A stretch of 64,000 nucleotides of DNA. Source: Plantibacter flavus (GTDB taxonomy: Bacteria > Actinomycetota > Actinomycetes > Actinomycetales > Microbacteriaceae). The DNA lies in contig NZ_FXAP01000001.1 of the NCBI RefSeq assembly GCF_900177615.1, positions 68,825-132,824 of the forward strand, read 5' to 3'. Below the pieces are notes generated by a model. That model did not search any database. It worked only from the letters and a program-made list of their open reading frames with translations, and was not told the DNA's origin. A program made the position numbers and the translations under genes. Below, piece by piece: positions 9,543 to 27,417 of the stretch (positions within the stretch are counted from its first letter, which is position 1; every line of letters begins with the position of its first letter).

Positions 9543-9618
9543 TTGACAGTCCGCTGGAGCAGGTGAGTAATGTGTCACCCACCACAAACCCGGATCCGTG
9601 TACTGTGTCACACGGTAC
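9543..9618 (+). promoter_or_regulatory. Promoter and GntR-type operators of the arabinofuranosidase/peptide transporter operon
   Basis: TTGACA at 9543-9548 and AGTAAT at 9566-9571 are separated by 17 bases, a good sigma-A-type promoter. An operator half-site AATGTGTCAC (9569-9578) overlaps the -10 box. A second, nearly complete 19-base palindrome, GTACTGTGTCACACGGTAC, sits at 9600-9618 with one mismatched pair around a single central base. The core GTGT(C/G)ACAC recurs at 20734-20748. The position over and just after the -10 box suggests repression, probably by the GntR/FCD protein encoded at 19980. Confidence 0.75.
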
Positions 9619-9635
9619 AGAAAGGCCTGTCGCCC

Positions 9636-11654
9636 ATGAGCTTCGACGAAGACGCCCGAGCAGCGAGCACCGCGGTGCACGCGGGAGGCCGGTACGCCGC
9701 CGTCGCACCGATCGCCGGAGTCCGCCTCCCGCTGGGCGCCGGACAGGTCGCGCTGGGAGACGGCGAACTCGGTGCGTGGCAGCGTCGGAACCGGGGCGCC
9801 ACCGTCCCGCACTCGATCGAGCAGCTCCGCCTCGCCGGCAACCTCGACAACCTCGCCCGGATCGCCGACCCCGGCGACGGCACGTCACGCTTCCGCGGGC
9901 GCTACCCGTTCCTCGACACCGACGTCTTCAAGACCCTCGAAGGCCTCGCCTACCTGCTCGCCGAGGACGAGGCCGTCGGAGCGGCGCCCGGCGCTGTCCG
10001 CGACTTCTACGAGGAGGCCGTCGGCGTCATCGAAGCCGCGCAGCGCGAGGACGGATACCTCAACTCCTACTTCCAGGCTCCGGAGATCGAGAAGGAACTC
10101 TGGGAGGACCTCGCCTGGGGCCACGAGCTGTACAACCTCGGACACCTCATCCAGGCGGCGATCGCCGCGAAGCGCCGTCTCGGCGACGACCGTCTGCTGA
10201 ACGTCGCCCGGGCCTTCGCCGACCTCACCGTCGGACGGTTCGGACCGGACGGCGACCCGCAGGTGTGCGGGCACCCCGAGGTCGAGATGGCCCTGGTGGA
10301 GCTCTTCCGCGAGACCGGCGTGCGGTCCTACCTCGAGCTCGCGACCGCGTTCGTCGACCGACGTGGCCACGGCACGGTCGAGCTCCGGGTCTTCCCGGCG
10401 GAGTACTTCCAGGACTCGGCGCCCCTCCGCGAGCTCGACTCCGTGACCGGACACGCCGTCCGCATGGCGTACCTGGCCGCCGGAGCGACCGACGTCGCCC
10501 TCGAACGCGGCGACCAGGAGCTGCTCGCGTCGCTGCAGCGGCTCTGGGACGACATGGTGGAGACGAAGCTCTACCTCACGGGCGGCCTCGGCAGTCGGCA
10601 CTCCGACGAGGCGATCGGCGACCGGTACGAGCTGCCGTCCGAACGCTCGTACAGCGAGACGTGCGCCGCGATCGCCGTGATGCAGTGGGGCTGGCGTATG
10701 TACCTCGCGACCGGGTCGGCGGCCGTCCTCGACACCGTCGAGACCGTCCTCTACAACGGGTACGCCGCCGGGCTCTCCGCGGACGGCACGGCCTTCTTCT
10801 ACGACAACCCACTGCAGCGTCGTCCTGACCACCTCCAGCGGTCGGGGGCGGAGGCGGACGGCGAACTCCTCAGGCGGAGCTGGTTCGGCTGCCCGTGCTG
10901 CCCGCCGAACATCGTGCGCTGGACCGCGGAGCTGCAGGATCACCTCGCGACGTCGACCCCCGCCGGTGTCGAAGTGGCCCACCTCACCGCGGCGTCGATC
11001 ACGACCGAACGGCTCTCCGTCACCGTCGACACCGCGTACCCGTGGGACGGAGCGGTCACCGTGACGGTGGACACCGCCGCCGACGACGAGGTCGAGCTCG
11101 CGATCCGCATCCCCGCGTGGGTCGTCGGTGGCTCCATCCGTATGGGCGGATCGACCGCGCCGCTCGAACCCGTCGACGGGTGGATCCGTGTCCGGCGCTG
11201 GTGGCGTGCGGGCGACACCGTGGAGCTCGACCTCCCGATGCCCGTCCGGGCGCACGGCGCGCACCCCTCCGTCGACGCCCTCCGCGGCTCGATCGCCTTC
11301 GTCCGCGGACCGATCGTCTCCTGCGCCGAGCAGCAGGACACGACGACCGACCTCGACCTCCTGCGGTTCTCCGGAGCCGACGCGGATCGCGCGGTCGTCG
11401 AACACCGTCGGATCCTGGACCGGGAAGGTATCGACGCCGTCGCGCTCCTCGTCCCGGCGACCGTCGACGCCCCCGCTCCGGCCGTGCTCTACCCGGTCCT
11501 GTCCGGTGCGCCCGACGCCGAGTCCGCCACGGCACCACTCGCCGACACCGCGACGACGGCCTCGCTGACGCAGACCACCGCGACCCTCATCCCCTACGCC
11601 CTCTGGGGCAACCGCGAACCGGGCGCCATGCGCGTCTGGTTCCGCGCCCACTGA
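9636..11654 (+). CDS. GH127 family beta-L-arabinofuranosidase
   Basis: A 672-residue glycoside hydrolase of family GH127, related to Bifidobacterium HypBA1, which removes beta-L-arabinofuranose from hydroxyproline-linked oligosaccharides of plant glycoproteins. The zinc/thiolate active site is readable: Glu325, Cys343 (in YSETCAA), and Cys421-Cys422 (in FGCPCCPPN) match HypBA1 Glu322, Cys340, Cys417 and Cys418, with near-identical spacing. The nucleophile is the first Cys of the CC pair. There is no signal peptide, so the enzyme is predicted to be cytoplasmic and to act on imported substrate. The start at 9636 lies after the operator, with an AGAAAGG ribosome-binding stretch; an in-frame start at 9570 would fall at the promoter itself. 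First gene of an operon with a peptide transporter. Other GH127 substrates cannot be excluded. Confidence 0.88.
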   Translation: MSFDEDARAASTAVHAGGRYAAVAPIAGVRLPLGAGQVALGDGELGAWQRRNRGATVPHSIEQLRLAGNLDNLARIADPGDGTSRFRGRYPFLDTDVFKTLEGLAYLLAEDEAVGAAPGAVRDFYEEAVGVIEAAQREDGYLNSYFQAPEIEKELWEDLAWGHELYNLGHLIQAAIAAKRRLGDDRLLNVARAFADLTVGRFGPDGDPQVCGHPEVEMALVELFRETGVRSYLELATAFVDRRGHGTVELRVFPAEYFQDSAPLRELDSVTGHAVRMAYLAAGATDVALERGDQELLASLQRLWDDMVETKLYLTGGLGSRHSDEAIGDRYELPSERSYSETCAAIAVMQWGWRMYLATGSAAVLDTVETVLYNGYAAGLSADGTAFFYDNPLQRRPDHLQRSGAEADGELLRRSWFGCPCCPPNIVRWTAELQDHLATSTPAGVEVAHLTAASITTERLSVTVDTAYPWDGAVTVTVDTAADDEVELAIRIPAWVVGGSIRMGGSTAPLEPVDGWIRVRRWWRAGDTVELDLPMPVRAHGAHPSVDALRGSIAFVRGPIVSCAEQQDTTTDLDLLRFSGADADRAVVEHRRILDREGIDAVALLVPATVDAPAPAVLYPVLSGAPDAESATAPLADTATTASLTQTTATLIPYALWGNREPGAMRVWFRAH

Positions 11655-11732
11655 CCTCCTCCCGTCCCCCGACCCCGCTCCACCCTCTCCACCCGCGGGC
11701 GACCCGCCCGATCGACACGAAAGCAGAGCGTC

Positions 11733-13427
11733 ATGAAGCAACGATTCTCCATCCCCGCCCTCGCGGCGGCGGCCGTCCTCCTCCTCGCGGGGTGTACCTC
11801 CGCGGGTTCGGGCTCGGGAGGTGACGGACCGTCCAGCACCCCGGTGAAGGGCGGCACCGTCGACGTCCTCCTGAACGCGGACTTCTCGCACCTCGACCCG
11901 GTCCAGGGCTTCGACGGCGGCGTGAACAACTTCTACCGCCTCATCTACCGCACGTTGACGACGCAGTCCACGGGCGAGGGCGCCAAGGGCACCGAGATGG
12001 TCCCCGATCTCGCGACCGACCTCGGCACGGTGAGTGACGACGGCCTCCAGTGGACGTTCACGCTCAAGGACGACCTGAAGTTCGAGGACGGCACGCCGAT
12101 CACGAGCAAGGACGTGAAGTTCGGCGTCGAGCGCTCCTTCGACCCGGCCATCGCCGTCGGATCGCCCTACGCCCGCCTCACGATCGCCGGCACGGACTCG
12201 TACGAGGGCCCGTACATCACGGGTGACCTGCCGTCCATCCAGACGCCGGACGACCAGACCATCGTCTTCACGCTCAAGGAGCCGTTCGCCGACTTCGCGA
12301 GCGTCGTCGGGCAGAACAGCTTCACGCCCTTCCCAGCCGACACCGAGCGGGTGACGACGACGAGCCTCGACAAGATGCCGATCGCCTCCGGCCCCTACAA
12401 GGTCGACAGCTACGAGCGCGGCTCGCAGCTGAAGCTCGTCCGCAACGACTCGTGGGACCCGAAGACAGACGACGTCCGCAAGGCCTACCCGGACGGCTTC
12501 GACTTCACCTTCGGCCTCGACGCCTCGACCATCGACGAGCGCATGATCGCCGGCCAGGGTGACGACGCGAACGCGATCGCCGGGTCGGTCCAGGCGGCGT
12601 CCATCTCCCGGATCCAGACGCCGGCCCTCAAGGCACGCACCATCGCCGGTCTCCAGGGCTGCACCACGTACATGGGTCTGAACACGACCAAGCCGAACAT
12701 GGACAACCCGCTGGTCCGCCAGGCCATCGCCTACGCCATCGACCGCGAGTCGGTGAAGGACGCCTCGGGCGGATCGCAGCTCGCGGACATCGCGACCACC
12801 ATGCTGCCGCCCACCGTCGCCGGCCACACCGAGTTCGACCTCTACCCGAGCAAGGACAACGCAGGAGACCCGGAGAAGGCCAAGGAACTCCTCGCCGAGG
12901 CGGGTCTCCCCGACGGCTTCTCGTTCACGCTCGACATCCGCAGCCAGCCCAAGATGCAGGCGCAGGCCGAGGCGGTGCAGCAGGCGCTCGCGAAGGCCGG
13001 CATCACGGTGAACTTCAACCTCATCGACACCTCGACCTACTACGAGGTCATCGGCACGACGTCGCAGCAGAACGATGCCGCCATTACCGGCTGGTGCCCG
13101 GACTGGGCCTCCGGGTCGACCTTCCTGCCGCCGCTCTTCGACGGCTCGCAGATCTTCCCGAAGGGCAACTCGAACATCGCGCAGCTGAACGACCCCGCCG
13201 TCAACGAGCGCATCGCCGAGATCCGCGCGATGACCGACACCGACGAGGCCAACGCCGCTTGGGGCGCGCTCGACGAGCAGATCCAGAAGCTCGTGCCGAC
13301 GGTGCCGCTGCTGTTCGAGAAGACGGTCATGGTCGTCGGAGCCAACGTCGCCGGTGCGTACTCGCACGCCGGGTACTCCGGTGGCATCGACTACGTGTCC
13401 GTCGGCCTGTCCTCGGCCGGCAAGTAG
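11733..13427 (+). CDS. Peptide ABC transporter substrate-binding lipoprotein
   Basis: A 564-residue extracytoplasmic solute-binding protein of the OppA/DppA type (SBP family 5). A lipoprotein signal peptide with lipobox LLAGC (Cys21) anchors it to the outer face of the membrane. The mature part opens with a Gly/Ser linker and the typical GGTVDVLLNADFSHLDPV strand. Later segments include the VPDLATDLGTVSDDGLQWTFTLKDDLKFEDGTP pattern region (residues ~85-125), characteristic of the family. It precedes the two permease and two ATPase genes. In this context the cargo is probably proline/hydroxyproline-rich (glyco)peptides, an inference from the neighbouring peptidases and GH127 enzyme. Confidence 0.92.
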   Translation: MKQRFSIPALAAAAVLLLAGCTSAGSGSGGDGPSSTPVKGGTVDVLLNADFSHLDPVQGFDGGVNNFYRLIYRTLTTQSTGEGAKGTEMVPDLATDLGTVSDDGLQWTFTLKDDLKFEDGTPITSKDVKFGVERSFDPAIAVGSPYARLTIAGTDSYEGPYITGDLPSIQTPDDQTIVFTLKEPFADFASVVGQNSFTPFPADTERVTTTSLDKMPIASGPYKVDSYERGSQLKLVRNDSWDPKTDDVRKAYPDGFDFTFGLDASTIDERMIAGQGDDANAIAGSVQAASISRIQTPALKARTIAGLQGCTTYMGLNTTKPNMDNPLVRQAIAYAIDRESVKDASGGSQLADIATTMLPPTVAGHTEFDLYPSKDNAGDPEKAKELLAEAGLPDGFSFTLDIRSQPKMQAQAEAVQQALAKAGITVNFNLIDTSTYYEVIGTTSQQNDAAITGWCPDWASGSTFLPPLFDGSQIFPKGNSNIAQLNDPAVNERIAEIRAMTDTDEANAAWGALDEQIQKLVPTVPLLFEKTVMVVGANVAGAYSHAGYSGGIDYVSVGLSSAGK

Positions 13428-13448
13428 TCGGAAGACCGGTAACCGCAG

Positions 13449-14408
13449 ATGTCGTCGTCCGTTCCCAGTGAGCTGACCACCGTCGCCGAGGAGGTGGGTG
13501 CGCCGGTCGGTGCGCCCACCCCCGCGCGGCGGGTGATCGCCACCCTCCGTTCCAGCCCACCGGTGCTGCTCAGCGTCGCGTTCATCGTGCTCGTCGTGCT
13601 GCTCGCGATCCTCGCCCCGCTGATCACCGCGATCAGCGGCTGGGGTCCGTACACCTTCGACAAGTCGGCGGTGGACTCCGACCTCGGCGGCGTGCCGATC
13701 GGCAACCTCGGCGGGATCTCCTCCGAGCACTGGTTCGGGGTCGAACCCGGGAACGGACGCGACATCTTCGCGCGGATCGCCTTCGGTGCGCAGGTGTCGC
13801 TGTCGATCGCCGTCTCGGCGACGATCGTCACGACCGTGCTCGGCGTCGTGCTCGGCATGCTCGCCGGCTTCTACGGCGGGTGGGTCGACCAGGTCGTCTC
13901 CCGCGTCATGGACTTCCTCATGGCGTTCCCGTCGCTCATCTTCATGATCGCGCTCCTGTCGGCCCTGCCCGCCGGCAACCGACCGGTCCTGCTCGTCGTG
14001 GTGCTGAGCCTCTTCGGTTGGCCGTACACCGCCCGGGTGGTGCGCGGCCAGGCGATGTCGCTGCGGACGAGCGAGTTCGTCGAGTCGGCGCGCGCGTCGG
14101 GCGCCGGGGGCATCCGCATCGTCTTCCGCGAGATCCTGCCGAACCTCCGCGGCACCATCATCGTCCTGGCCACCCTCGCCGTTCCCGGGTACATCGGCAC
14201 GGAGGCGGGCCTCTCCTTCCTCGGCGTCGGCGTCACCCCGCCCACACCGAGCTGGGGTCAGATGATCGCGACCGCGGTCGGTTGGTACGCGGTCGACCCG
14301 ATGTACTTCCTGATCCCCGGCACCTTCCTGTTCCTCACGGTGCTGTCCTTCACCGTGCTCGGAGACCGCCTGCGCAAGGCCCTCGACTCGGGAGACGCCG
14401 CCTCATGA
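13449..14408 (+). CDS. Peptide ABC transporter permease (DppC/OppC type)
   Basis: A 319-residue inner-membrane permease. A first membrane helix (about residues 39-61, VLLSVAFIVLVVLLAILAPL) is followed by an extracytoplasmic loop with the family pattern HWFGVEPGNGRDIFARIAFGAQVSL, then five further helices. The cytoplasmic EAA-type loop that docks with the ATPases is visible as FVESARASGAGGIRIVFREILPN (~210-232). It forms the heterodimeric channel with the next gene and overlaps it by four bases (ATGA). Order SBP-C-B-D-F differs from the commoner A-B-C-D-F order but occurs in actinobacteria. Confidence 0.92.
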   Translation: MSSSVPSELTTVAEEVGAPVGAPTPARRVIATLRSSPPVLLSVAFIVLVVLLAILAPLITAISGWGPYTFDKSAVDSDLGGVPIGNLGGISSEHWFGVEPGNGRDIFARIAFGAQVSLSIAVSATIVTTVLGVVLGMLAGFYGGWVDQVVSRVMDFLMAFPSLIFMIALLSALPAGNRPVLLVVVLSLFGWPYTARVVRGQAMSLRTSEFVESARASGAGGIRIVFREILPNLRGTIIVLATLAVPGYIGTEAGLSFLGVGVTPPTPSWGQMIATAVGWYAVDPMYFLIPGTFLFLTVLSFTVLGDRLRKALDSGDAAS

Positions 14409-15400
14409 CCCTCTACCTGCTGCGCCGGATCGCGTCGGCGATCGGCATCCTGCTGCTCATCAGCCTGTTCACCTACGTCATCTTCTTCCTGCTGTCGCCC
14501 GACCCGGCGGTGCAGATCTGCGGCAAGACCTGCACCCCCGACCGCATCGACCAGATCCGGGCGCAGCTCGGGCTCGACCAGCCGTTCTGGCAGCAGTACC
14601 TCGAGTTCATCCGGGGGATCGTCATGGGCCGGAGCTACGGGGAGGGCGCCTCGGCGGTCTCCTGCGCGGCGCCGTGCCTCGGCTTCAGCTTCCAGACCAA
14701 CGAGTCCGTCATGGACATGATCACCGCGCGCTTCCCCGTGACCGCGACGGTCGCGATCGGTGCGGCGGTCCTCTGGCTGCTCGTCGGCGTCAGCGGTGGC
14801 CTGCTCAGCGCCGTCAAGCAGGGGACCGGCTGGGACCGTGGGGCGATGATGGTCGCGCTCGCCGGCATCAGCCTGCCGAACTACTTCCTCGCGCTCCTCC
14901 TGCAGTACGTCCTCGTCGTGCAACTGCAGATCCTGCCGTTCCCGCAGGCCGTGCCCTTCGCCGAGGACCCGGTCCGGTGGTTCCAGAACTACCTCATGCC
15001 GTGGATCGTGCTCGCCCTCGGCTACGCGTCGATGTACGCGAGGCTCGTCAGGGCGAACGTCATCGACACCCTCGGTGAGAACTTCATGCGGACCGCCCGG
15101 GCGAAGGGCCTGCCCGCGCCGCTCATCCTGCGCCGCCACGCGTTGCGCCCGGCGCTCACGCCCGTCGTCACGCTCTTCGGCATGGACTTCGCGGGCCTCC
15201 TCGGTGGCGCCCTCATCACGGAGACGGTGTTCGGACTGAACGGCGTCGGCAAGCTCGCCGCCGACTCGATCGCGAAGAACGACCAGCCCGTCATCATGGG
15301 CGTCACCCTCCTGGCCGCGTTCTTCGTGGTCATCGGCAACGTCGTGGTCGACGTCGTGTACACGTTCCTCGACCCGAGAGTGAGAGTGAAGAGCGCATGA
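14405..15400 (+). CDS. Peptide ABC transporter permease (DppB/OppB type)
   Basis: A 331-residue permease starting MTLYLLRRIASAIGILLLIS, the canonical N-terminus of the B subunit with its first membrane helix. Periplasmic-loop residues DQPFWQQYLEFIRGIVMGR are family-typical. The ATPase-docking loop reads FMRTARAKGLPAPLILRRHALRPALTP. A Cys-containing insert (CGKTCTPDR, ~41-49) near the first loop is unusual, and a disulfide there is possible. The start at 14405 overlaps the preceding stop (ATGA) and its own stop overlaps the next gene by four bases, so the set is translationally coupled. Confidence 0.92.
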   Translation: MTLYLLRRIASAIGILLLISLFTYVIFFLLSPDPAVQICGKTCTPDRIDQIRAQLGLDQPFWQQYLEFIRGIVMGRSYGEGASAVSCAAPCLGFSFQTNESVMDMITARFPVTATVAIGAAVLWLLVGVSGGLLSAVKQGTGWDRGAMMVALAGISLPNYFLALLLQYVLVVQLQILPFPQAVPFAEDPVRWFQNYLMPWIVLALGYASMYARLVRANVIDTLGENFMRTARAKGLPAPLILRRHALRPALTPVVTLFGMDFAGLLGGALITETVFGLNGVGKLAADSIAKNDQPVIMGVTLLAAFFVVIGNVVVDVVYTFLDPRVRVKSA

Positions 15401-16278
15401 GCCCCACCGTCACCAGGACCATCTCCCTGCCCGTCCCCGGGGCGGCGCTGCTCGAGGTCGACGACCTCACGGTCACCTTCCCGACCACCGCCGGCGACAT
15501 CGACGTGGTGCGGAAGGCGTCGTTCGCGGTCCAGCACGGCCAGACCCTCGGCATCGTGGGTGAGTCCGGCTCCGGCAAGTCGATGACCTCGCTCGCGATC
15601 ATGGGGCTGCTCCCGAACGGCGGGCGCACGACCGGCAGCGTCCGACTGAGCGGACACGAGCTCGTCGGTCGCAGCGACCGCGAGATGCGCCGCGTACGCG
15701 GCGACCGGATCGCGATGGTCTTCCAGGACCCGCTCTCCTCGCTCAACCCGTACTACACCGTCGGGCTGCAGATCGAGGAGGCGTACCGCGCCCATCGCGG
15801 CGGTTCCCGGAAGGCCGCCAGGGCCGTCACGATCGAAGCCCTCGAACGGGTCCGCATCGCCGACGCCTCCCGGCGCGTCGACCACTACCCGCACCAGTTC
15901 TCGGGCGGCATGCGGCAGCGCATCATGATCGCCATGGCGCTCTGCCTGGAACCCGACCTGCTCATCGCGGACGAACCGACGACGGCGCTCGACGTCACCG
16001 TCCAGGCGCAGATCCTCGACCTCCTCTCCGAACTGCAACGGGAGACCGGTGCCGGCATGATCTTCATCACCCACGACCTCGCCGTCGTCAGTCAAGTCGC
16101 CGACGACGTGCTCGTCATGCGCGGCGGCGACCCCGTCGAGATGGGCACGGCCGAGCAGATCTTCTCCCGGCCGCAGGCGGCGTACACCCGGGCGCTCCTC
16201 GACGCCCTCCCGCGGATCGACGACCCGTTCACCGAGCGGCCGACGGCACCCGCCACGACCGGAGAGGGACAGGCATGA
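15397..16278 (+). CDS. Peptide ABC transporter ATP-binding protein (DppD/OppD type)
   Basis: A 293-residue ABC ATPase. Walker A GESGSGKS is near residues 55-62, followed by the Q-loop [11 protein letters not shown], signature FSGGMRQR, Walker [10 protein letters not shown] and switch histidine THDL. It drives peptide import together with the following ATPase. The oligopeptide-type C-terminal segment of the family appears as [20 protein letters not shown], but the Cys-rich cluster seen in some OppD/DppD subunits is absent. Coupled to both neighbours by ATGA overlaps. Confidence 0.92.
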
Positions 16279-17153
16279 ACGACGCACCAGTGCTCCTGCA
16301 GGCCACCGGGCTGACGAAGGACTTCACCACGAGGGGCGACGGCGCGTTCCGCGCAAGCACCACCCGGTTCCGCGCCGTCGACGACGTCGGGTTCGCCGTC
16401 CGCGCCGGCCAGACCCTCGGCATCGTCGGCGAGTCGGGCAGCGGCAAGTCGACGACCGCGCGGATGATCGCGAAGCTCATCGAACCGACCGCCGGCACGA
16501 TCACCTTCGACGGCGAGGACGTCACCACTGCGCGTGGGCCGGCGCTCGCCGCGTTCCGGACGAAGGTGCAGGTGGTCTTCCAAGACCCGTTCTCCTCCCT
16601 CAACCCGAGGCACACCGTCGAGCGCATCGTGTCGGCACCGCTCGACTACCAGGGCATCACCCCGAAGCAGGGCAAGCGCGCCCTCGTGCGCGACCTGCTC
16701 GACCGCGTCGGCCTGAACCCCGACCACCTGCAGCGCTACCCGCGGCAGTTCTCCGGCGGCCAGGCTCAGCGCATCGGGATCGCCCGGGCGCTCGCCGTCT
16801 CCCCGAAGCTCGTGATCTGCGACGAGGCGGTGTCGGCGCTCGACGTGTCGGTGCAGGCACGCATCATCGACCTGCTGCGCGACCTGCAGGCCGAGCGCGG
16901 GCTGAGCTACCTGTTCATCGCGCACGACCTCGCCGTCGTGCGGCAGATCGCCCACGACGTCGCCGTCATGCACCGGGGCAAGGTGGTCGAGCAGGGTGAC
17001 CGCGAGGCGATCTTCGACCACCCGCAGGACGAGTACACGAAGACCCTGCTCGCCGCCGTGCCCACGATCGACCCGAGCTGGGAGGCCGCGCGTGCCACCA
17101 TGCTCGAACAGGAGCGGACGCACGGATCGGCCGCCGGAAGGACAGAGGCATGA
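16275..17153 (+). CDS. Peptide ABC transporter ATP-binding protein (DppF/OppF type)
   Basis: A 292-residue partner ATPase. It has Walker [10 protein letters not shown] (~53-61), VFQDPFSSLNPRHTV, signature FSGGQAQR, Walker B LVICDEAVSALDVSVQ and AHDLAVVRQIAHDVAVMHRGK. It lacks the longer N-terminal extension of some fused DF proteins, so transport uses a D/F heterodimer. It overlaps the preceding gene and the following prolyl aminopeptidase gene by four bases each. The peptidase is therefore made in register with the importer, which supports peptide rather than metal or sugar cargo. Confidence 0.92.
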   Translation: MNDAPVLLQATGLTKDFTTRGDGAFRASTTRFRAVDDVGFAVRAGQTLGIVGESGSGKSTTARMIAKLIEPTAGTITFDGEDVTTARGPALAAFRTKVQVVFQDPFSSLNPRHTVERIVSAPLDYQGITPKQGKRALVRDLLDRVGLNPDHLQRYPRQFSGGQAQRIGIARALAVSPKLVICDEAVSALDVSVQARIIDLLRDLQAERGLSYLFIAHDLAVVRQIAHDVAVMHRGKVVEQGDREAIFDHPQDEYTKTLLAAVPTIDPSWEAARATMLEQERTHGSAAGRTEA

Positions 17154-19979: not shown

Positions 19980-20669
19980 ATGGGAGTCGCGATGAGCATG
20001 TCGGCGATCCGACCGGCCGAGGAACGGCTGAGCCTGCGGGCGCAGGTGGAGCGGGCGGTGTCCGCGGCGATCATCTCGGGCGAGCTCGCTCCGGGGACGA
20101 TGATCTCGGTACCGACGCTGGCGGTGCAGTTCAACGTCTCGGCGACCCCCGTCCGCGAAGCGATGCTCGATCTCGAGAAACGCGACTTCGTGGAGGCGGT
20201 CCGGAACAAGGGCTTCCGCGTCACGGTCGTCAGCGAGGCCTCGCTCCGCAACACGGCGCAGATCCGCCAGCTCCTCGAGCCGCCCGCGATGGCGGACCTG
20301 GCGGAGGTCTTCGACCACGAGTCGCTGCCCGAGCTCCGGCAACAGGCTGACGACATCGTGGCCGGTGCCCGCGACGGCGACCTGACCCGGTACCTCGAAG
20401 CCGACCAGGCGTTCCACCTCGCGCTCACCGCGAAGCTCGGCAACCCGCTGCTCGTCGAGCTCGTCGCCGACCTCCGCGGACGCACCCGGCTCGTGGGGCT
20501 GGCGGCCATGCTCGATTCGCAGCAGCTCGACCGCTCGGCCGTGGAGCACCACGAGCTCCTCGACGCCCTCGAGCGGGGTGACGGGGTGGTCGCTCGCGAG
20601 CTCATGCATCGACACATCGGGCACACCACCGGCTGGTGGGCCGGCAAGCCCGAATCCGACGCCGAGTAG
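19980..20669 (+). CDS. GntR family transcriptional regulator (FadR subfamily, FCD domain)
   Basis: A 229-residue regulator. The N-terminal winged helix (~20-80) contains ISGELAPGTMISVPTLAVQFNVSATPVREAM, the GntR hallmark. The C-terminal FCD ligand domain (~90-220) is all-helical and has the EADQAFHLAL and HHELLDALERGD segments. FCD domains bind small organic acids or amino acids, often with a metal. The start at 19980 has GGGAG at 19968-19972; a second in-frame ATG at 19992 is possible. It lies between the two operons that carry GTGTSACAC palindromes and is the obvious candidate for their repressor, with hydroxyproline or a pathway intermediate as inducer (inference). Confidence 0.9.
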   Translation: MGVAMSMSAIRPAEERLSLRAQVERAVSAAIISGELAPGTMISVPTLAVQFNVSATPVREAMLDLEKRDFVEAVRNKGFRVTVVSEASLRNTAQIRQLLEPPAMADLAEVFDHESLPELRQQADDIVAGARDGDLTRYLEADQAFHLALTAKLGNPLLVELVADLRGRTRLVGLAAMLDSQQLDRSAVEHHELLDALERGDGVVARELMHRHIGHTTGWWAGKPESDAE

Positions 20670-20719: not shown

Positions 20720-20748
20720 TTGCCTGATCAGTGAATGTGTGACACATT
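20720..20748 (+). promoter_or_regulatory. Promoter and GntR-type operator of the hydroxyproline oxidation operon
   Basis: A perfect 15-base palindrome AATGTGTGACACATT at 20734-20748 lies 40 bases upstream of the GTG at 20788. A possible -35 TTGCCT (20720-20725) and weak -10 CACATT (20743-20748, spacing 17) place the operator over the spacer and -10. The core GTGTGACAC is the same as at 9600-9618 (GTGTCACAC). The palindrome identification is strong; the -35/-10 assignment is weak. Confidence 0.75.
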
Positions 20749-20787
20749 ACTGAAAGCCCTTCCCCGTACCGACCGAGAGGACCGCCC

Positions 20788-21984
20788 GTGACCCGCATCG
20801 TCATCGTCGGCGCCGGCATCGTCGGAGCGGCCTGCGCGCGCATCCTCGCCCGTCGCGGTGCCGAGGTCGTCGTCCTCGACCGTTCTGCGGCCGCCGGCGG
20901 CACGAGCGGCTCGGGGGAGGGGAACATCCTCGTCTCCGACAAGGGGCCCGGCCCCGAACTCGACCTCGCCCGGTACGCCTCACGCCTCTGGCCCGTCGTC
21001 ACCGCCGAACTCAGCGCCGAACTGGGACCGACCTTCCCGAGCATCGAGTTCGAGCGCAAGGGCGGCATCGTGGTCGCCACCACCGAGGCCGGCGCGCAGC
21101 CCCTGCTCGACTTCGCCGCCGCCCAGCGCTCCGCCGGGGTCGACGCCAGACCCCTCACCGAGGACGAGCTGCTCGCGGCGGAGCCGTCGATCACCCGCTC
21201 GTCCACGGCGGCCGTCCACTACCCAGAGGACGCACAGGTCCAGCCCGTCATCGCCACGGAGGCCCTGCTCGCCTCGGCCCGGCGGGCGGGCGCGGTCGTG
21301 CGCACCGGCGTCACCGTGACGGGCGGCGTCCGGAGCGCGACCGGTCGCCTCACGGGTGTCCGGACCTCCGTGGGCGACGTCTCGGGCGATGCGGTCCTCG
21401 TCTGCGCCGGACCGTGGTCGGCCGAGCTCGGCGAGGTGCTCGGCGCACCCGTCCCGGTCCGTCCCCGTCGTGGCATGGTGCTCGTCACCACCCGCATGCC
21501 GCACCGCGTGCACCACAAGGTCTACGACGGCGACTACTTCGGGGCCACGCAGTCGAGCGACGCCTCGCTCCAGACCTCGAGCGTCGTCGAGTCGACCGCC
21601 GCGGGCACCGTCCTCATCGGGTCGAGCCGGCAGCAGATCGGCTTCGACGCGCGCCTCGACGTCGACGTGCTCCGCGAGGTCGCGGCGAAGTCGCTGCGCC
21701 TCTTCCCGTTCCTCCGCGACGCCTCGGTCATGCGCAGCTACGGCGGCTTCCGGCCGTACATGCCCGACCACCTCCCGGTCATCGGCCCCGACCACCGCGT
21801 CGACGGCCTCTGGCATGCGACGGGCCACGAGGGCGCCGGCATCGGACTGGCCCTCGCGACGGCCGAGCTCATCGCCGCCCGCCTGCTCGGCGGATCGGCC
21901 GACCTCGACGACGCCCCGTTCCAACTCGACCGCCCGGGGCTCGCCCCGCACCTGCGCGTCGACCGGCCGGCGGAGGTTGCCTGA
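20788..21984 (+). CDS. FAD-dependent oxidoreductase, D-hydroxyproline dehydrogenase-like beta subunit
   Basis: A 398-residue DAO-family flavoprotein. The FAD-binding motif GAGIVGAACARILARRG begins at residue 7, and the C-terminal DAO signature is GGFRPYMPDHLPVIGP...GHEGAGIGLA. This type (HcnC/SoxB-like) pairs with a small [2Fe-2S] protein and an HcnB-like flavoprotein, exactly the next two genes. In hydroxyproline catabolism the heterotrimer oxidises cis-4-hydroxy-D-proline to pyrroline-4-hydroxy-2-carboxylate. The GTG start at 20788 has GAGAGGA just upstream. Closely related complexes act on glycine, octopine or nopaline, but the downstream epimerase and deaminase favour hydroxyproline. Confidence 0.88.
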   Translation: MTRIVIVGAGIVGAACARILARRGAEVVVLDRSAAAGGTSGSGEGNILVSDKGPGPELDLARYASRLWPVVTAELSAELGPTFPSIEFERKGGIVVATTEAGAQPLLDFAAAQRSAGVDARPLTEDELLAAEPSITRSSTAAVHYPEDAQVQPVIATEALLASARRAGAVVRTGVTVTGGVRSATGRLTGVRTSVGDVSGDAVLVCAGPWSAELGEVLGAPVPVRPRRGMVLVTTRMPHRVHHKVYDGDYFGATQSSDASLQTSSVVESTAAGTVLIGSSRQQIGFDARLDVDVLREVAAKSLRLFPFLRDASVMRSYGGFRPYMPDHLPVIGPDHRVDGLWHATGHEGAGIGLALATAELIAARLLGGSADLDDAPFQLDRPGLAPHLRVDRPAEVA

Positions 21985-22334
21985 TGGTCTCGAGACGACT
22001 GCCCGCGACGGACGACCGGATCGTGCCCGGCACGGAGGACGCGCTGAGCATCGACCTCGACGGGACGCCCGTCGACGGACTCCGAGGACAGACGATCGCC
22101 GGCGTCCTGTTGGGCTCCGGCGTCCTCGCCTGGCGCCGCACCAGCGGGTCCGGGAAGCCACGCGGCGTCTTCTGCGGCATCGGGGTCTGCTTCGACTGCA
22201 TCGTCACGGTGAACGGCCAGCGGGACGTCCGCGCCTGCCAGCGTCGCGCCGCGGACGGCGACCGCATCGAGACGCAACATGACGCCCTCCCGGAACCCAC
22301 GACGGAGAACGACCCGTTCGGGGACCGGACATGA
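21984..22334 (+). CDS. (2Fe-2S)-binding small subunit of the oxidoreductase
   Basis: A 116-residue ferredoxin-like protein, equivalent to HcnA or the gamma subunit of D-hydroxyproline dehydrogenase. The plant-type cluster motif is complete: Cys64-x4-Cys69-x2-Cys72 in CGIGVCFDC and Cys85 in RACQ. Its start shares one base with the upstream stop (TGATG) and its end overlaps the next gene by four bases, consistent with stoichiometric synthesis of a complex. It should pass electrons between the two flavoprotein subunits. The last ~15 residues are acidic and probably flexible. Confidence 0.88.
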   Translation: MVSRRLPATDDRIVPGTEDALSIDLDGTPVDGLRGQTIAGVLLGSGVLAWRRTSGSGKPRGVFCGIGVCFDCIVTVNGQRDVRACQRRAADGDRIETQHDALPEPTTENDPFGDRT

Positions 22335-23848
22335 GCGCCCGGCAGCGCGAGGTCGTCGTCATCGGAGCAGGTCCCGCCGGCCTCCAGGCCGCGCTCGCCG
22401 CCCGGGCCCTCGGCGCCGCAGTCACGCTGCTCGACGCCTCGGACGAGCTCGGCGGTCAGTACTGGCGGCACCTGCCGGCCAGTCGGCCGTCGGAAGCCGA
22501 GGCCTCGCTGCACCACGGGTTCGAGCGCTTCGTCGCCATGCGCGCGGCGCTCGACGCCGACGACGGCTGCACGGTGATCACCGAGGCGCAGGTGTGGGCG
22601 ATCGACGTCGACCGCGCCGCCGCCGACCACGGCTCCGACGGCACCTCCGGGGCGACCGGCCTGCGTCTGCACGTCCTCATCGGACCGCCGGACGGCGCCG
22701 ACCGCACGCCGCTCACCCTCCGGCCCGACGCGCTCGTCCTCGCGACCGGCGCGCACGACCGCACGCTGCCGTTCCCCGGCTGGGACCTCCCCGGCGTCTT
22801 CTCGGCCGGTGCCGCCCAGGCCCTCGCGAAGGGCGAGCGGGTCACCGTCGGTCAGCGGGTGGTCGTGGCCGGCGCCGGACCGTTCCTGTTGCCGGTGGCC
22901 GCGTCCTTGACCGCGACCGGATCGCGCGTACTCGGGGTCTACGAGGCCACGACCGTCGGCGGACTCGCCAGGGGCTGGCTCCCCAAGCCCTGGCAACTGC
23001 TCGGTGTGACCGGGAAGGCCGGTGAGCTGCTCGGCTACGTCGGCGGCCACCTCCGCCACCGGATCCCGTACCGCGTCGGCCACGCGGTGGTCGCTGCGCA
23101 CGGCACCGACCGGGTCGAGCGCGTGACCATCGCCGCCGTCGACGCCGACTGGTCGCCGATCCCCGGGACCGAGCGCACGGTCGAAGCGGACGCCGTGTGC
23201 GTCAGTCACGGGTTCACCCCGCGGCTCGAACTGCCCGTCGCGGTCGGCTGCGCGCTCACCGAAGCCCGGTTCGTCCAGGTCGACGCCGAGCAGCGCACGA
23301 GCGTCCCGACCGTCTTCGCGGCGGGGGAGATCACCGGGATCGGGGGCGTCGACGCCGCGCTCGCCGAGGGCGCGATCGCGGGACACGCTGCGGCCGGCGG
23401 CCTCCCCGGTGCCTCCGGGATCCGTGCCGCCGTGAGCCGACGCGACACGTTCCTCGCCTTCGCCGACCGGCTCGAACGCGCCCACGGCATCCGCGCCGGC
23501 TGGAGCGATTGGCTCGACGACGACACCACCATCTGCCGCTGCGAGGAGGTCGACTACGGCTCGTTGCGCACGACGGCGACCGCCACCTGCGCGACCGGCC
23601 TGCGCTCCCTCAAACTCAGCACGCGCGCCGGGCTCGGGATCTGCCAGGGCCGCATGTGCGGACGCACCGTCGAGGAGCTCCTCCACCGCGTCGCCTCCGA
23701 ATCCGGCGGCAGCGGCCTCATCGACGGCGTCTCGAGCGACCGCCGGCCCATCGCCTCCCCGCTGCGCATCGGCGAACTCGCCGCGCAGGCACCGGGACAC
23801 CCTCCCCACGAACCGCCGTCGACCCCGACGGCCGAACACCCAGGATGA
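22331..23848 (+). CDS. FAD/NAD(P)-binding oxidoreductase with C-terminal Cys cluster, dehydrogenase alpha subunit
   Basis: A 505-residue HcnB-like flavoprotein. An N-terminal FAD motif GAGPAGLQAA (~12-21) is followed by a second dinucleotide motif VVVAGAGPF near 178-186. A C-terminal BFD-like iron-sulfur segment has Cys402-x-Cys404 (ICRCEEV) and Cys438-x4-Cys443 (ICQGRMC). With the two preceding proteins it forms the predicted heterotrimeric D-hydroxyproline dehydrogenase that feeds electrons to the respiratory chain. Coupled to the small subunit by ATGA. Confidence 0.88.
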   Translation: MSARQREVVVIGAGPAGLQAALAARALGAAVTLLDASDELGGQYWRHLPASRPSEAEASLHHGFERFVAMRAALDADDGCTVITEAQVWAIDVDRAAADHGSDGTSGATGLRLHVLIGPPDGADRTPLTLRPDALVLATGAHDRTLPFPGWDLPGVFSAGAAQALAKGERVTVGQRVVVAGAGPFLLPVAASLTATGSRVLGVYEATTVGGLARGWLPKPWQLLGVTGKAGELLGYVGGHLRHRIPYRVGHAVVAAHGTDRVERVTIAAVDADWSPIPGTERTVEADAVCVSHGFTPRLELPVAVGCALTEARFVQVDAEQRTSVPTVFAAGEITGIGGVDAALAEGAIAGHAAAGGLPGASGIRAAVSRRDTFLAFADRLERAHGIRAGWSDWLDDDTTICRCEEVDYGSLRTTATATCATGLRSLKLSTRAGLGICQGRMCGRTVEELLHRVASESGGSGLIDGVSSDRRPIASPLRIGELAAQAPGHPPHEPPSTPTAEHPG

Positions 23849-23889
23849 CCGACCGGTCTCCGCACCACTCCCTCGGAAAGGAACCACCC

Positions 23890-24804
23890 ATGGCCAAGCA
23901 GTTCGACCTCGGCGGCGTCATCGTCGCGACCACCCTCGCGTTCAAGGAGGACGCCTCGGCGCCCGCAGGCCTCGCCGTCGACTACGACCGCTTCGCCGAG
24001 CACTGCAACTGGCTCATCGAGAACGGTTGCCGCGGCGTCGGCCCGAACGGCTCGCTCGGCGAGTACTCGTCGCTGACGGACGCCGAGCGTCGCAAGGTCA
24101 TCCAGGTCGCGGTCGACACCGTCGGCGACCGCGGCCTCGTCGTCGCCGGGGTGCACGGCGTCGGCTGGCACCAAGCCCAGCAGTGGGCCGAGTACGCGAA
24201 GGAGGACGGCGCGGACGGCGTCCTGCTCCTGCCGCCCACCATCTACCGGGCGAACGACGACGAGGTCATCGAGCACTACAGCCGCGTGGACGAAGTCGGC
24301 CTGCCGATCATGGCCTACAACAACCCGATCGACACCAAGGTCGACCTCACGCCCGACCTGCTCGTCGAACTCGCCAAGCTCGAGCACGTCGTCGCCGTGA
24401 AGGAGTTCTCGGCCGACATCCGTCGGGTGCTTGAGATCCAGGACAAGACCGACCTCGACGTCATCGCGGGGGCGGACGACCTCCTCTTCGAGTCCCTCGT
24501 CGCCGGCGCGGTCGGCTGGTTCGCCGGTTACCCGAACGCCTTCCCGCGCGAGGCCGTCGAGCTGTACACGCTCGTCACCTCGGGTCGCGTCGACGAGGCC
24601 CGCACCCTCTACCGTGAGCTCGTGCCCGTCTTCGGATGGGACTCGAAGACGGAGTTCGTCCAGGCCATCAAGCTGTCGATCGACATCGCCGGCGAGAGCT
24701 ACGGTGGTCCGACGCGTCCGCCGCGCGGTCCGCTGAACGCGCTCCAGAGGGAGCAGGTCACGACGCAGACGCGTCGCGCGCTCGACTACCTCGCCGCGCG
24801 CTGA
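23890..24804 (+). CDS. DapA/NAL-family lyase, pyrroline-4-hydroxy-2-carboxylate deaminase-like
   Basis: A 304-residue TIM-barrel enzyme of the dihydrodipicolinate synthase family. The Schiff-base lysine is Lys171 (VAVKEFS), the catalytic tyrosine Tyr143 (MAYNNP), and the substrate loop GPNGSLGEYSSLT is at 51-63. In hydroxyproline degradation this family converts pyrroline-4-hydroxy-2-carboxylate to alpha-ketoglutarate semialdehyde with loss of ammonia. Its place between the dehydrogenase and epimerase genes supports that role over lysine biosynthesis. GGAAAGGA lies just upstream of the ATG at 23890. Alternative substrates within the family (keto-deoxy sugar acids) cannot be excluded by motif alone. 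Confidence 0.87.
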   Translation: MAKQFDLGGVIVATTLAFKEDASAPAGLAVDYDRFAEHCNWLIENGCRGVGPNGSLGEYSSLTDAERRKVIQVAVDTVGDRGLVVAGVHGVGWHQAQQWAEYAKEDGADGVLLLPPTIYRANDDEVIEHYSRVDEVGLPIMAYNNPIDTKVDLTPDLLVELAKLEHVVAVKEFSADIRRVLEIQDKTDLDVIAGADDLLFESLVAGAVGWFAGYPNAFPREAVELYTLVTSGRVDEARTLYRELVPVFGWDSKTEFVQAIKLSIDIAGESYGGPTRPPRGPLNALQREQVTTQTRRALDYLAAR

Positions 24805-24859
24805 GCCTGACGGCCGACGCGACACCCCGACCACGACCACCAGTCCTGAGAGGCACACC

Positions 24860-25861
24860 ATGAAGTCCTCCCGCATGATCAGTGCGGTCGACTCGCACAC
24901 CGAGGGCATGCCGACCCGCGTCGTCACCGGCGGGGTCGGCGTGATCCCCGGCGCGACCATGAACGAGAAGCGCCTGCACTTCATGGAGCACCTCGACGAC
25001 CTGCGGCTCTTCCTCATGAACGAGCCCCGCGGTCATGCGGCGATGAGCGGGGCGATCCTGCAGCCGTCCACGCGTGCGGACTGCGACTGGGGCGTCGTGT
25101 ACATCGAGGTGTCCGGCTGCCTGCCGATGTGCGGGCACGGCACCATCGGGGTCGCGACGGTCCTCGTGGAGACCGGCATGGTGGAGGTGGTCGAGCCGGT
25201 CACGACGATCCGGCTCGACACCCCCGCCGGACTCGTGATCGCGCGGGTCGACGTCAGCGACGGGCACGCCGACCGCGTGACCATCGAGAACGTCCCGAGC
25301 TACGTCGACCGCCTCGACGCCACGATCGAGGTGCCCGGCCTCGGCACCGTGCCCTACAGCCTCGCGTTCGGCGGCAACTTCTACGCGATGGTCGACCTCG
25401 ACGACGTGGGCCTGCCCTTCGACCGCGACCGTCAGCAGGACATCCTCGACGCGGGTCTGCGGATCATGGCGGCGATCAACGAGCAGGTGCCGCCCGTGCA
25501 CCCCGAGATCGCGGGCCTCGACCACTGCCACCACGTCGAGTTCATCGCGCCGGGATCCGACGCCGTGCTGTCCCGGCATGCGATGGCCATCTTCCCGGGG
25601 TGGTTCGACCGCTCGCCCTGTGGCACCGGCACTTCGGCGCGCATGGCCGAGCTCTGGGCCCGCGGTGAGCTGCCGCTCGACCAGGACTTCGTCAACGAGT
25701 CCTTCATCGGCAGCCGGTTCACCGGCCGGCTGATCGCCGAGACGACGGTGGCGGGCAGGCCGGCCGTCATCCCGACCATCTCCGGTCGGGCCTGGGTCAC
25801 CGGAATCGGCTCCTACCTCCTCGACCCCGCCGATCCGTTCCCGACCGGCTTCCAATTCTGA
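24860..25861 (+). CDS. Proline racemase family, 4-hydroxyproline 2-epimerase
   Basis: A 333-residue member of the proline racemase superfamily. Both catalytic cysteines are present: Cys91 in PMCGHGT and Cys254 in PCGTGTSA. This excludes trans-3-hydroxy-L-proline dehydratase, in which the second is Thr. In this pathway it would interconvert trans-4-hydroxy-L-proline and cis-4-hydroxy-D-proline, the first step. The Cys pair is shared with true proline racemase, so the hydroxyproline preference is inferred from the neighbourhood (dehydrogenase, deaminase, semialdehyde dehydrogenase). Its ATG lies 55 bases after the deaminase stop, in the same operon. Confidence 0.9.
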   Translation: MKSSRMISAVDSHTEGMPTRVVTGGVGVIPGATMNEKRLHFMEHLDDLRLFLMNEPRGHAAMSGAILQPSTRADCDWGVVYIEVSGCLPMCGHGTIGVATVLVETGMVEVVEPVTTIRLDTPAGLVIARVDVSDGHADRVTIENVPSYVDRLDATIEVPGLGTVPYSLAFGGNFYAMVDLDDVGLPFDRDRQQDILDAGLRIMAAINEQVPPVHPEIAGLDHCHHVEFIAPGSDAVLSRHAMAIFPGWFDRSPCGTGTSARMAELWARGELPLDQDFVNESFIGSRFTGRLIAETTVAGRPAVIPTISGRAWVTGIGSYLLDPADPFPTGFQF

Positions 25862-25887
25862 ACCACACCACGATCCCGGAGGATCAC

Positions 25888-27417
25888 ATGACGACCACGC
25901 CAGCCCCCGACGCCACCATCGCTGAGACCACCCCCGAGGAGCTCGAGCAGGTCCTCCGTCGGGCCGCCGTTGCGGCACCCGCGTGGGCCGCGACGCAGGC
26001 GGACGCCCGTGCGCGAGCGCTCGTCGCCGTCGCCGACGCCCTGCAGGCCCACGCGGACGAGCTCGTCCCCGTCGGCATGGTGGAGACAGGGCTCGCCGAG
26101 GCCCGGCTCCGCGGCGAGCTCCTCCGCACCGCCGTGCAGCTGCGGCTCTTCGCGGAGACGATCGTCGACGGCTCCTACCTCGATGTCCGGATCGACGAAG
26201 CGGACCCGGACTTCGCACTCGGCGCGCGCCCGGAACTCCGCCGCGTCCTCGTGCCGCTCGGCCCGGTCGTGAACTTCGCGGCGAGCAACTTCCCCTTCGC
26301 CTTCTCCGTCGCCGGTGGTGACACCGCGTCGATCCTCGCGGCCGGATGCCCGGTGATCCTCAAGGTGCACGACGGCCACCCGCGGCTCTCGCTCGCGACG
26401 GCGGCCGTCGTCGCGGCCGCGCTCCGGGCGTCCGGGGCTCCTGACGGCGTGTTCCAGACGATCATCGGCCAGGAGGCCGGGGTCGTCGCCCTGCAGGACG
26501 AGCGCGTCCGGGCCGGTTCCTTCACGGGCTCCCTGCGGGCCGGCCGGATCCTCGCGGACCTCGCGGCGGCGCGCCCCGTCCCGATCCCGTTCTTCGGCGA
26601 GCTCGGCAGCGTCAACCCCGTGTTCGTGACGCAGACCGCCCTCGACGAGTCCGCGACGGCCATCGCGACGGGATTCGTCACGAGTGTCGCGGGCTCGGCG
26701 GGTCAGCTGTGCACGAAGCCCGGCTTCGTCTATTTGCCGGACGGCGCGGGGCTCGACGGGTCGATCCGTGAGGCCGCTGCCGCGGTTCCCGAGCACCGAC
26801 TCCTGAACGACCGCATCTCGGCCGGGTACGAGGCGAGGCGAGACACCATCCTCGGCACCGACGGCGTGCGGGTCATCGCCGAGGGTTCGCTGCGGATCGA
26901 CGAGGACGGCGACGGCTGGGCGACCCCCACGATCGTCGCGGTCTCACTCGACGCGCTGCGGGCCGGTCGGCACGCCCTGCTCGACGAGGCCTTCGGTCCG
27001 TTGTCGATCCTCGTCGAGGTCCCGGCCGGTACGGCGTTCGCGCCGCTCGTGCCGGAGTTCTGCGAGGGCAACCTGACGGCCACCCTGCACGCCGGCGCCG
27101 ACGAGACGAGCGACGACCTCGTGGAGCTCGTCCAGCAGCTCTCGGCGCACGCCGGCCGGGTGCTGTTCGGCGGTTGGCCCACCGGCGTCGCCGTCACGCC
27201 CGCCATGCAGCACGGCGGACCGTGGCCGGCGACGACGAACGACTCCAGCACCTCGGTGGGGACGGCCGCGATCACCCGTTTCCTGCGGCCGGTCGCGTTC
27301 CAGAACATGCCGGACCGGTTCCTGCCCGAGGTGCTGCGGTCGTCGGCCACCGGTGTCCCGCGTACGGTCGCGCCCGCGGGTGAATCGACGCACTGGGGCG
27401 AGGCGGCGGAGCGCTGA
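25888..27417 (+). CDS. Aldehyde dehydrogenase, alpha-ketoglutarate semialdehyde dehydrogenase-like
   Basis: A 509-residue NAD(P)-dependent aldehyde dehydrogenase. Asn134 (ASNFPFAFS), Glu238 (FFGELGSVNP) and catalytic Cys275 (AGQLCTKPG) are in place. The atypical motifs SNFPFAFS and GQLCTKPG are those of the clade that contains bacterial alpha-ketoglutarate semialdehyde dehydrogenases. It completes the route from hydroxyproline to alpha-ketoglutarate. The ATG follows CCGGAGGA, an excellent ribosome-binding site, only 26 bases after the epimerase. Last gene of the region; the next gene is on the opposite strand. Confidence 0.9.
   Translation: MTTTPAPDATIAETTPEELEQVLRRAAVAAPAWAATQADARARALVAVADALQAHADELVPVGMVETGLAEARLRGELLRTAVQLRLFAETIVDGSYLDVRIDEADPDFALGARPELRRVLVPLGPVVNFAASNFPFAFSVAGGDTASILAAGCPVILKVHDGHPRLSLATAAVVAAALRASGAPDGVFQTIIGQEAGVVALQDERVRAGSFTGSLRAGRILADLAAARPVPIPFFGELGSVNPVFVTQTALDESATAIATGFVTSVAGSAGQLCTKPGFVYLPDGAGLDGSIREAAAAVPEHRLLNDRISAGYEARRDTILGTDGVRVIAEGSLRIDEDGDGWATPTIVAVSLDALRAGRHALLDEAFGPLSILVEVPAGTAFAPLVPEFCEGNLTATLHAGADETSDDLVELVQQLSAHAGRVLFGGWPTGVAVTPAMQHGGPWPATTNDSSTSVGTAAITRFLRPVAFQNMPDRFLPEVLRSSATGVPRTVAPAGESTHWGEAAER

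Follow-up and report, generated by a model that had tools for sequence, protein, structure and literature searches.

The window considered here is a 64,000-nucleotide stretch of the genome of Plantibacter flavus (contig NZ_FXAP01000001.1, positions 68,825 to 132,824; genome size 4.3 Mb, G+C content of the window 70.5%). Between its positions 9636 and 27417 lie 15 genes, all on the + strand and all with intact reading frames, which are arranged as two operons and bring together a glycoside hydrolase of family 127 (GH127), an oligopeptide (Opp/Dpp-type) importer, two predicted peptidases, and a predicted route from trans-4-hydroxy-L-proline (Hyp) to α-ketoglutarate. Operon 1 (9636-20669) runs from the GH127 gene through a GntR/FCD regulator, and operon 2 (20788-27417) from the DAO subunit of a dehydrogenase through an aldehyde dehydrogenase (ALDH). 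An earlier note on this DNA had listed the enzyme and transport genes, and all of them are indeed present, intact, and on the + strand; the regulator gene lies inside the span of that note and was absent from its gene list. The two operons are preceded by the same HypR-type operator box, GTAATGTGTCAC, found as an exact match at 9567-9578 on the + strand, 69 bases 5′ of the GH127 start codon, and again at 20739-20750 on the − strand, 49 bases 5′ of the DAO gene. A second, imperfect copy with one mismatch, GTACTGTGTCAC, is located at 9600-9611 (+), and an imperfect copy is also found upstream of GH127 in the six other members of the genus.

The first gene of operon 1 (9636-11654) encodes a predicted GH127 β-L-arabinofuranosidase of 672 amino acids, in which the three domains PF07944, PF20736, and PF20737 all score above cut-off, as in the architecture of HypBA1. 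The nearest solved GH127 structure is 4qjy, and HypBA1 (3wkw) is matched at E 9e-82. The earlier note had called the active-site Glu and Cys residues intact, which is borne out by the alignment to 3wkw: the equivalents of E322, E338, C340, C417, and C418 are all identical in the window protein, and they are invariant in 16 aligned members of its subfamily (defined below), the window member counted. E322, E338, C340, and C418 act as further catalytic residues or zinc ligands. The residue described as the nucleophile of HypBA1 is C417 (PMC10728902). The sole NCBIfam match of the window enzyme is aceric acid hydrolase, at 331 bits far below the 950-bit cut-off. Two more GH127-family genes of the same genome (G000, C10:1016603 and C2:188877), both outside the subfamily, sit in open frames of 1009 and 1041 amino acids. 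In genome G182 (L074, left edge), the Hyp epimerase gene has within about 5 kb of it a GH127 gene of 39% identity that is likewise not of the subfamily.

Operon 1 continues with a complete Opp/Dpp importer, composed of a solute-binding lipoprotein of family 5 (SBP; 11733-13427, PF00496) with a LAGC lipobox-like N-terminus, an OppC/DppC-type permease (13449-14408; PF00528, PF12911), an OppB/DppB-type permease (14405-15400; PF19300, PF00528), and two ATP-binding cassette (ABC) ATPases of the oligopeptide type (15397-16278 and 16275-17153), each with PF00005 and the oligo_HPY domain PF08352. It is the only importer within the two operons, and the nearest solved relative of the SBP is the oligopeptide-binding protein 2wok (E 1.9e-86). 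The importer is followed by an α/β hydrolase resembling prolyl iminopeptidases (17150-18463; PF00561), predicted to remove N-terminal Pro or Hyp, and by an aminopeptidase P of the M24 family (18460-19950; PF00557, PF05195), predicted to cleave Xaa-Pro and Xaa-Hyp bonds. Four-base overlaps join the second permease gene, and each later gene as far as aminopeptidase P, to its predecessor. The α/β hydrolase has weak, below-cut-off matches to TIGR01249 and TIGR01250; its nearest solved structure is 8jgn (At3g61540, E 1.3e-98), followed by proline iminopeptidases (E 5e-6 at best), while aminopeptidase P is closest to aminopeptidase P 4pv4 (E 6.8e-53). In a Kyte-Doolittle hydropathy check, used instead of a signal-peptide predictor, neither the GH127 nor these two peptidases display a strongly hydrophobic leader, and we therefore take all three to be cytoplasmic.

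The last gene of operon 1 (19980-20669; PF00392, PF07729) encodes the GntR/FCD (FadR-type) regulator, a proposed HypR-type repressor, which carries a DQAFH motif and further His within its FCD part; FCD domains are reported to bind metal via such His residues (PMC6608401). Operon 2 holds all families of the Hyp pathway together. It begins with three subunits of a predicted D-Hyp dehydrogenase, namely the DAO (β) subunit (20788-21984; PF01266), the 2Fe-2S (γ) subunit of the Fer2_4 family (21981-22334; PF13510), and the FAD/BFD (α) subunit (22331-23848; PF07992, PF04324), and continues with a pyrroline-4-hydroxy-2-carboxylate deaminase of the DHDPS family (23890-24804; PF00701), a 4-Hyp epimerase of the Pro_racemase family (24860-25861; PF05544), and an α-ketoglutaric semialdehyde dehydrogenase (25888-27417; PF00171), so assigned by family and place. 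The first five genes are ordered as SCO6289-6293 of Streptomyces coelicolor. C91 and C254 of the epimerase correspond to the cysteine pair of proline racemases, which we take to be catalytic, and in the deaminase lysine 171 falls on the lysine of its DHDPS-family relatives in the alignment. The ALDH is nearest to 3v4c, an aldehyde dehydrogenase (NADP+), at E 6e-100, with no NCBIfam profile above cut-off among the 25 matches listed.

The linkage of these genes was followed through 329 genomes of the same family (Microbacteriaceae). The window GH127 is matched at E ≤ 1e-150 in 26 of them, and the 25 at E ≤ 1e-200 make up what we call the subfamily; the epimerase is matched at E ≤ 1e-60 in 74 genomes. 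All 25 subfamily genomes possess the epimerase, which is no more than 16 kb from GH127 in 23, and the co-occurrence gives a Fisher p of 1.6e-18, a descriptive value given that related genomes are not independent. The 26th genome (G269, GH127 of 49% identity, assembly 87% complete) has no epimerase match. With the window's own locus left out, all 15 genes are colinear with the window in 21 of the 25 GH127 loci of the family. The other four comprise a rearranged locus (G058), two in which operon 1 lies apart from the Hyp core (G009, where operon 1 is without the regulator gene, and G084), and the GH127 of G269, which stands alone.

A large part of this gene set is found again in many actinobacterial genera. 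A scan of named genomes, carried out with two peptide patterns of this GH127 subfamily, provided the best 80 of 83 loci; the list says little about other GH127 proteins, because its members were found through subfamily patterns. Of the 80, 74 are subfamily members, with an identity of at least 53%, and they are distributed over Plantibacter, Agromyces, Glaciibacter, Okibacterium, Leifsonia, Clavibacter, Microbacterium, Planctomonas, Gryllotalpicola, Arthrobacter, Specibacter, Isoptericola, Krasilnikoviella, Terrabacter, Kribbella, Nonomuraea, Streptosporangium, Sphaerisporangium, Phytoactinopolyspora, Streptomyces, Acidipropionibacterium (a metagenome-assembled genome, MAG), and others. The SBP gene directly follows GH127, starting within 600 bases, in 71 of these 74 loci. 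The full five-gene Opp set is present in 69, an iminopeptidase match in 62, aminopeptidase P in 55, and full Opp with both peptidases in 47. Of the five loci that lack the full set, four run into contig ends (L117, L131, L133, L151); the fifth (L135, Streptomyces sp. NBC_01669) has GH127, iminopeptidase, aminopeptidase P, deaminase, and epimerase, with a divergent dehydrogenase and no Opp genes.

A Hyp-core gene lies within the fetched flank in 45 of the 74 loci, in several arrangements: downstream on the same strand in 35, upstream and divergent in 8, on both sides in 1, and upstream on the same strand in 1. For the other 29, a whole-genome search placed an epimerase (68-89% identity) beyond the flank in 28, just past the first flank in Arthrobacter sp. 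MYb227 (L104, L218) and far away or on another contig in others; the genome of L108 contains only a relative of 40% identity.

The same setting is not seen around GH127 genes outside the subfamily. The six listed loci at 40% GH127 identity or less are without these module genes, apart from one weak ATPase match, and relatives of the SBP, permeases, peptidases, or Hyp core were found near none of 20 control GH127 loci, four of which display a weak ABC-ATPase match (30-38% identity). The controls are the matches from 19 of 64 non-subfamily genomes, mostly from the top of the list, plus G269; their flanks are about 8 kb, shorter at contig ends or in short stretches (L196, L203), and L203 repeats the genome of L049. 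In a GH127 tree of 130 rows a single branch, with a support of 100 in the Shimodaira-Hasegawa-like approximate likelihood ratio test (SH-aLRT), separates 99 module rows from the 31 others. It is a quick tree without bootstrap and with long-branch warnings, in which near copies are included (121 rows are different) and some genomes occur twice (L026 and L092, for example). The combination had been put forward in the earlier note as a linked system, and with the epimerase within 16 kb in 23 of all 26 GH127 genomes and none of 20 controls alike, it goes beyond chance.

The regulatory element of the two operons resembles that of a known system. In S. coelicolor, the GntR/FadR-type repressor HypR was footprinted on TACAATGTCAC, the consensus is given as CTNTGC(A/C)ATGTCAC, and deletion of the epimerase gene abolished growth on L-Hyp (PMC6608401). 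The window box keeps TGTCAC and is a variant of that operator. Judging from the place of its gene and from its family, the GntR/FCD protein of operon 1 probably binds the box. Within the window alone, allowing up to 2 mismatches, the box is not significant (5 found against 2.67 expected; 15 of 100 shuffles reach 5). In the complete 4.3-Mb genome, however, the 12-base pattern GTAATRTGTSAC has exactly two exact matches, one before GH127 and one before DAO. It is the near absence of the box elsewhere that counts here, because the pattern was drawn from these two promoters themselves. Four one-mismatch sites occur elsewhere in the genome, three of them inside called reading frames; the one outside them (G000 C11:55712, L091) is possibly a further target.

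Across the remaining 24 subfamily genomes of Microbacteriaceae (~86 Mb), there are 53 exact matches, compared to 2 for the reversed control. These are divided into 21 at GH127 promoters (18 of 24 genomes), 24 at DAO promoters (24 of 24 genomes), and 8 elsewhere, and such whole-genome scans lead us to reject a chance operator. In G084, where the Hyp core is 1.16 Mb away from GH127, there are three matches in 3.8 Mb, two at GH127 and one at DAO. That the box is kept at both promoters across this distance, and that both exact matches of the Plantibacter genome fall on the two promoters, supports the earlier view of a single regulon. G009, the other genome with unlinked halves, has an exact box at DAO and two further matches elsewhere.

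Three of the 8 extra boxes (G152, G246, G090; L173-L175) precede a sodium:alanine-type symporter, some 3-4 kb from GH127. Of the other five, the surroundings of four (all but the one at G120 C7) were inspected and gave no explanation. In L174 (G246) the symporter is followed by a Pro_racemase-family protein, whose best score, below cut-off, is to trans-3-hydroxy-L-proline dehydratase, and by a pyrroline-2-carboxylate-reductase-like protein; profiles were run on L174, and the symporters of L173 and L175 were recognized by visual comparison of their first residues. The regulon may thus include trans-3-Hyp there.

Across the genera, the search covered the 250 bases 5′ of GH127 in the 74 listed loci. 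The published S. coelicolor box TGCAATGTCAC occurs with at most one mismatch before 39 of the 74 genes, against 0.1 expected from base shuffles, GTAATRTGTSAC before 34, and either type before 57; the 14-base S. coelicolor consensus is exact before 7 and within one mismatch before 18. The matches to the S. coelicolor box constitute independent support, because that box had been defined independently of these genes. All 12 Kribbella GH127 promoters have the S. coelicolor-type box. An exact box is also located immediately before DAO in L215 (Agromyces) and near DAO in L219 and L217 (the DAO start of L217 being unsure), and L216 has a variant box.

We consider it probable, and hold this with fair confidence, that the two operons form one HypR-type regulon for the import of Hyp-rich, probably arabinosylated, peptides and their degradation inside the cell. 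Extensin repeats are described as Ser-Hyp4 with 1-4 arabinoses, β-linked except the last (PMC6085000, PMC7263609). In the mechanism that we propose, enzymes encoded outside the cluster would release short peptides from extensin-like proteins, and the Opp-type importer would take these up with short arabinose chains still attached. The cytoplasmic GH127 would then remove β-L-arabinofuranose units, including the Hyp-linked one, and it would have to act before or between the peptidase steps. The freed L-arabinose would enter the L-arabinose isomerase route, for which the gene araA is present in the genome. Aminopeptidase P would cut before Hyp, freeing Ser from Ser-Hyp, and the iminopeptidase-like hydrolase would take N-terminal Hyp residues off one by one, such that the two together could dismantle Ser-Hyp-Hyp-Hyp-Hyp. 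Free trans-4-Hyp would be epimerized, oxidized by the three-subunit dehydrogenase, deaminated, and oxidized to α-ketoglutarate. The GntR/FCD protein would repress both operons through the shared box, and the repression would be relieved by Hyp or a Hyp product. The glycopeptide reading of the earlier note is in part supported by the single regulon, the complete set of Hyp enzymes, the intact GH127, and their conservation, whereas its arabinosylated cargo, the action of GH127 on Hyp-linked arabinose, and a preference of the epimerase for Hyp over proline are predictions from sequence. The more specific proposal, a dedicated glycopeptide import in Plantibacter and its kin with Opp uptake of intact arabinosylated Hyp peptides, cytoplasmic deglycosylation by a specialized GH127 subfamily, and one HypR-type repressor, which in plant associates could also draw down arabinosylated peptide signals, has in our judgment an even chance.

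A number of observations weigh against this picture. The terminal α-1,3-arabinose of Ara4-Hyp would need another enzyme, and the two operons include no gene for a secreted protease or glycosidase. The solved family-5 relatives of the SBP include nickel- and heme-binding proteins, so that non-peptide ligands occur in the family, and the epimerase falls below every NCBIfam equivalog cut-off that separates Hyp epimerase from proline racemase. Relatives of Opp, iminopeptidase, and aminopeptidase P are found without GH127 in 4 of 33 Hyp loci (L051, L057, L059, L080), these 33 being drawn from the 49 family genomes that have the epimerase and lack the GH127 subfamily; the peptide route can thus do without arabinose. 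The Kribbella module loci yielded no aminopeptidase P. As to the regulation, the presence of the box at its two source promoters is partly by construction, and the promoter and terminator scan of the locus gave no results, with no sigma-70-like promoter at either operon start. The unlinked GH127 of G009 has only a two-mismatch box. Neither box type is present at one mismatch or less in 17 of the 74 GH127 promoters, nine of them from Streptomyces, and one of the 17 loci (L106) has a helix-turn-helix (HTH)/cupin regulator beside GH127. In Kribbella, where the Hyp cores are unlinked to GH127 in the fetched stretches, 11 of 11 Hyp cores have another palindrome instead of such a box, so that in this genus no common box precedes both halves. 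The palindrome, like CGTTCATTTTAGTGAACG, is shared before DAO in L204-L214 and points to another regulator.

The Hyp-peptide operons without GH127 can be interpreted in two ways. On the one hand, because they exist in 4 of the 33 loci, they suggest that GH127 is an added part that would open glycosylated peptides to an existing route. On the other hand, they are what one would see if peptide and sugar were handled apart, with Opp importing bare Hyp peptides and GH127 splitting β-arabinobiose or Hyp-arabinose that enters via another transporter, the enzyme being co-regulated on account of the same plant protein as source. Such a scheme has a precedent in B. longum, whose HypBA1 is intracellular and is reported to cleave imported β-Ara2 (PMC7263609, PMC5928203). 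It is at odds with Opp being the sole importer of the two operons and with the SBP gene following GH127 directly in 71 of 74 loci, although these loci were scanned for window genes only and a sugar importer nearby is possible. We regard it as unlikely, yet as the most serious of the alternatives.

It is considerably less probable that the system serves proline-rich or collagen-like peptides, with GH127 as a hitchhiker acting on an unrelated β-L-arabinofuranoside such as those of pectin or rhamnogalacturonan II. The S. coelicolor HypR regulon does include a putative collagenase (PMC6608401), the epimerase cannot be told from proline racemase by profile, and the GH127 has its only NCBIfam match, weak as it is, to aceric acid hydrolase. 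However, GH127 comes first behind the box, and one subfamily is tied to this setting over many genera, from which a mere hitchhiker should in time have moved elsewhere; the absence of module genes from all 20 control loci, along with the one-branch split of the tree, also led us to judge hitchhiking unlikely. Hardly probable at all is that the system removes arabinosylated plant peptide hormones in order to manipulate the host. β-Linked arabinose is reported on peptide hormones (PMC7263609). Carriers of the module include members of plant-associated genera, but also Nonomuraea, Kribbella, Streptosporangium, and an Acidipropionibacterium MAG, which are mainly soil or other organisms. The pathway moreover leads into central metabolism, as would be expected of a nutrient, and nutrient salvage is a simpler account than the attack system or the hormone target that the earlier note had also entertained.

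Several known systems share parts of the proposed regulon. The closest is the HypR regulon of S. coelicolor (SCO6289-6293, SCO6294, SCO5912), whose five Hyp-core genes match those of the window in kind and order, and which has a GntR/FadR-type regulator and an operator core ATGTCAC (PMC6608401). It differs in that its polymer end is a putative secreted collagenase and that the gene for α-ketoglutaric semialdehyde dehydrogenase is not near the Hyp operon; its published account, in the portion available to us, mentions neither GH127 nor Opp nor proline peptidases, and neither "arabino" nor "peptide" begins a word of the main text (PMC6608401). The hyp genes of Sinorhizobium meliloti and the lhp genes of Pseudomonas likewise provide Hyp epimerase, D-Hyp dehydrogenase, and deaminase, with a GntR repressor in S. 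meliloti, as proposed for the window. They are routes for Hyp itself, in whose description there, as far as the available portion goes, no GH127 or peptide importer is mentioned (PMC6608401).

From the sugar side, the HypAA/HypBA2/HypBA1 and BauR system of B. longum also has an intracellular GH127 beside an ABC importer and is directed at Hyp-rich glycoproteins, but the sugar is cut outside by GH121 and GH43, β-Ara2 enters through a sugar ABC importer, and the regulator is of the LacI type (PMC7263609, PMC5928203). The window has instead a peptide-type importer, peptidases, Hyp catabolism, and a GntR regulator. No sugar importer, LacI regulator, or GH121 is found among the genes of the two operons (GH121 was not searched elsewhere in the genome). 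The plant-associated Xanthomonas euvesicatoria uses a HypBA1 homolog and two partner glycosidases (XeHypBA1/BA2/AA) on Hyp-arabinosides, with signal peptides on all three enzymes and a prolyl oligopeptidase gene nearby that is called a pseudogene; in the accessible text of that report the word "transporter" occurs 0 times and Hyp catabolism is not mentioned (PMC6085000). Among the many genes listed in a metabolic reconstruction of Latescibacteria are those for GH127 and oligopeptide ABC transporters, with no such cluster or Hyp catabolism in the part of it available to us (PMC4454575).

The Hyp pathway, HypR, the chemistry of GH127, and the way in which Bifidobacterium and Xanthomonas use Hyp-arabinosides, sugar first, are therefore already known. 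What appears to be new is a HypR-type Hyp regulon with a putative glycopeptide import arm, widespread in actinobacteria. We found no description of GH127 and a peptide-import arm together with the Hyp core in the open-licence literature of PubMed Central (PMC), although subscription papers could hold one. The claim that the combination is undescribed stands to that extent, and it has to be narrowed for the Hyp core with its GntR/FadR repressor, already described in S. coelicolor (PMC6608401). The Bifidobacterium and Xanthomonas routes, as reported, remove sugars first, B. longum then importing the sugar; the window route, if true, would import the peptide with the sugar on and use all of it. 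This would amount to a substrate prediction for the GH127 subfamily, the Opp importer family, and the two peptidases at once, and would carry the HypR regulon beyond collagen to the proteins of plant cell walls. To our knowledge, the bacterial recycling of extensin-type Hyp is poorly known; Plantibacter, Kribbella, and Nonomuraea are candidate organisms for testing.

Outside the two operons, the window holds rpoB and rpoC, encoding the β and β′ subunits of RNA polymerase, at 37027-44445, about 10 kb downstream. Further on, at 53214-57734, it encodes a 1506-residue FtsK/SpoIIIE-type ATPase with an FHA domain, a type of protein that is part of type VII secretion in other bacteria.

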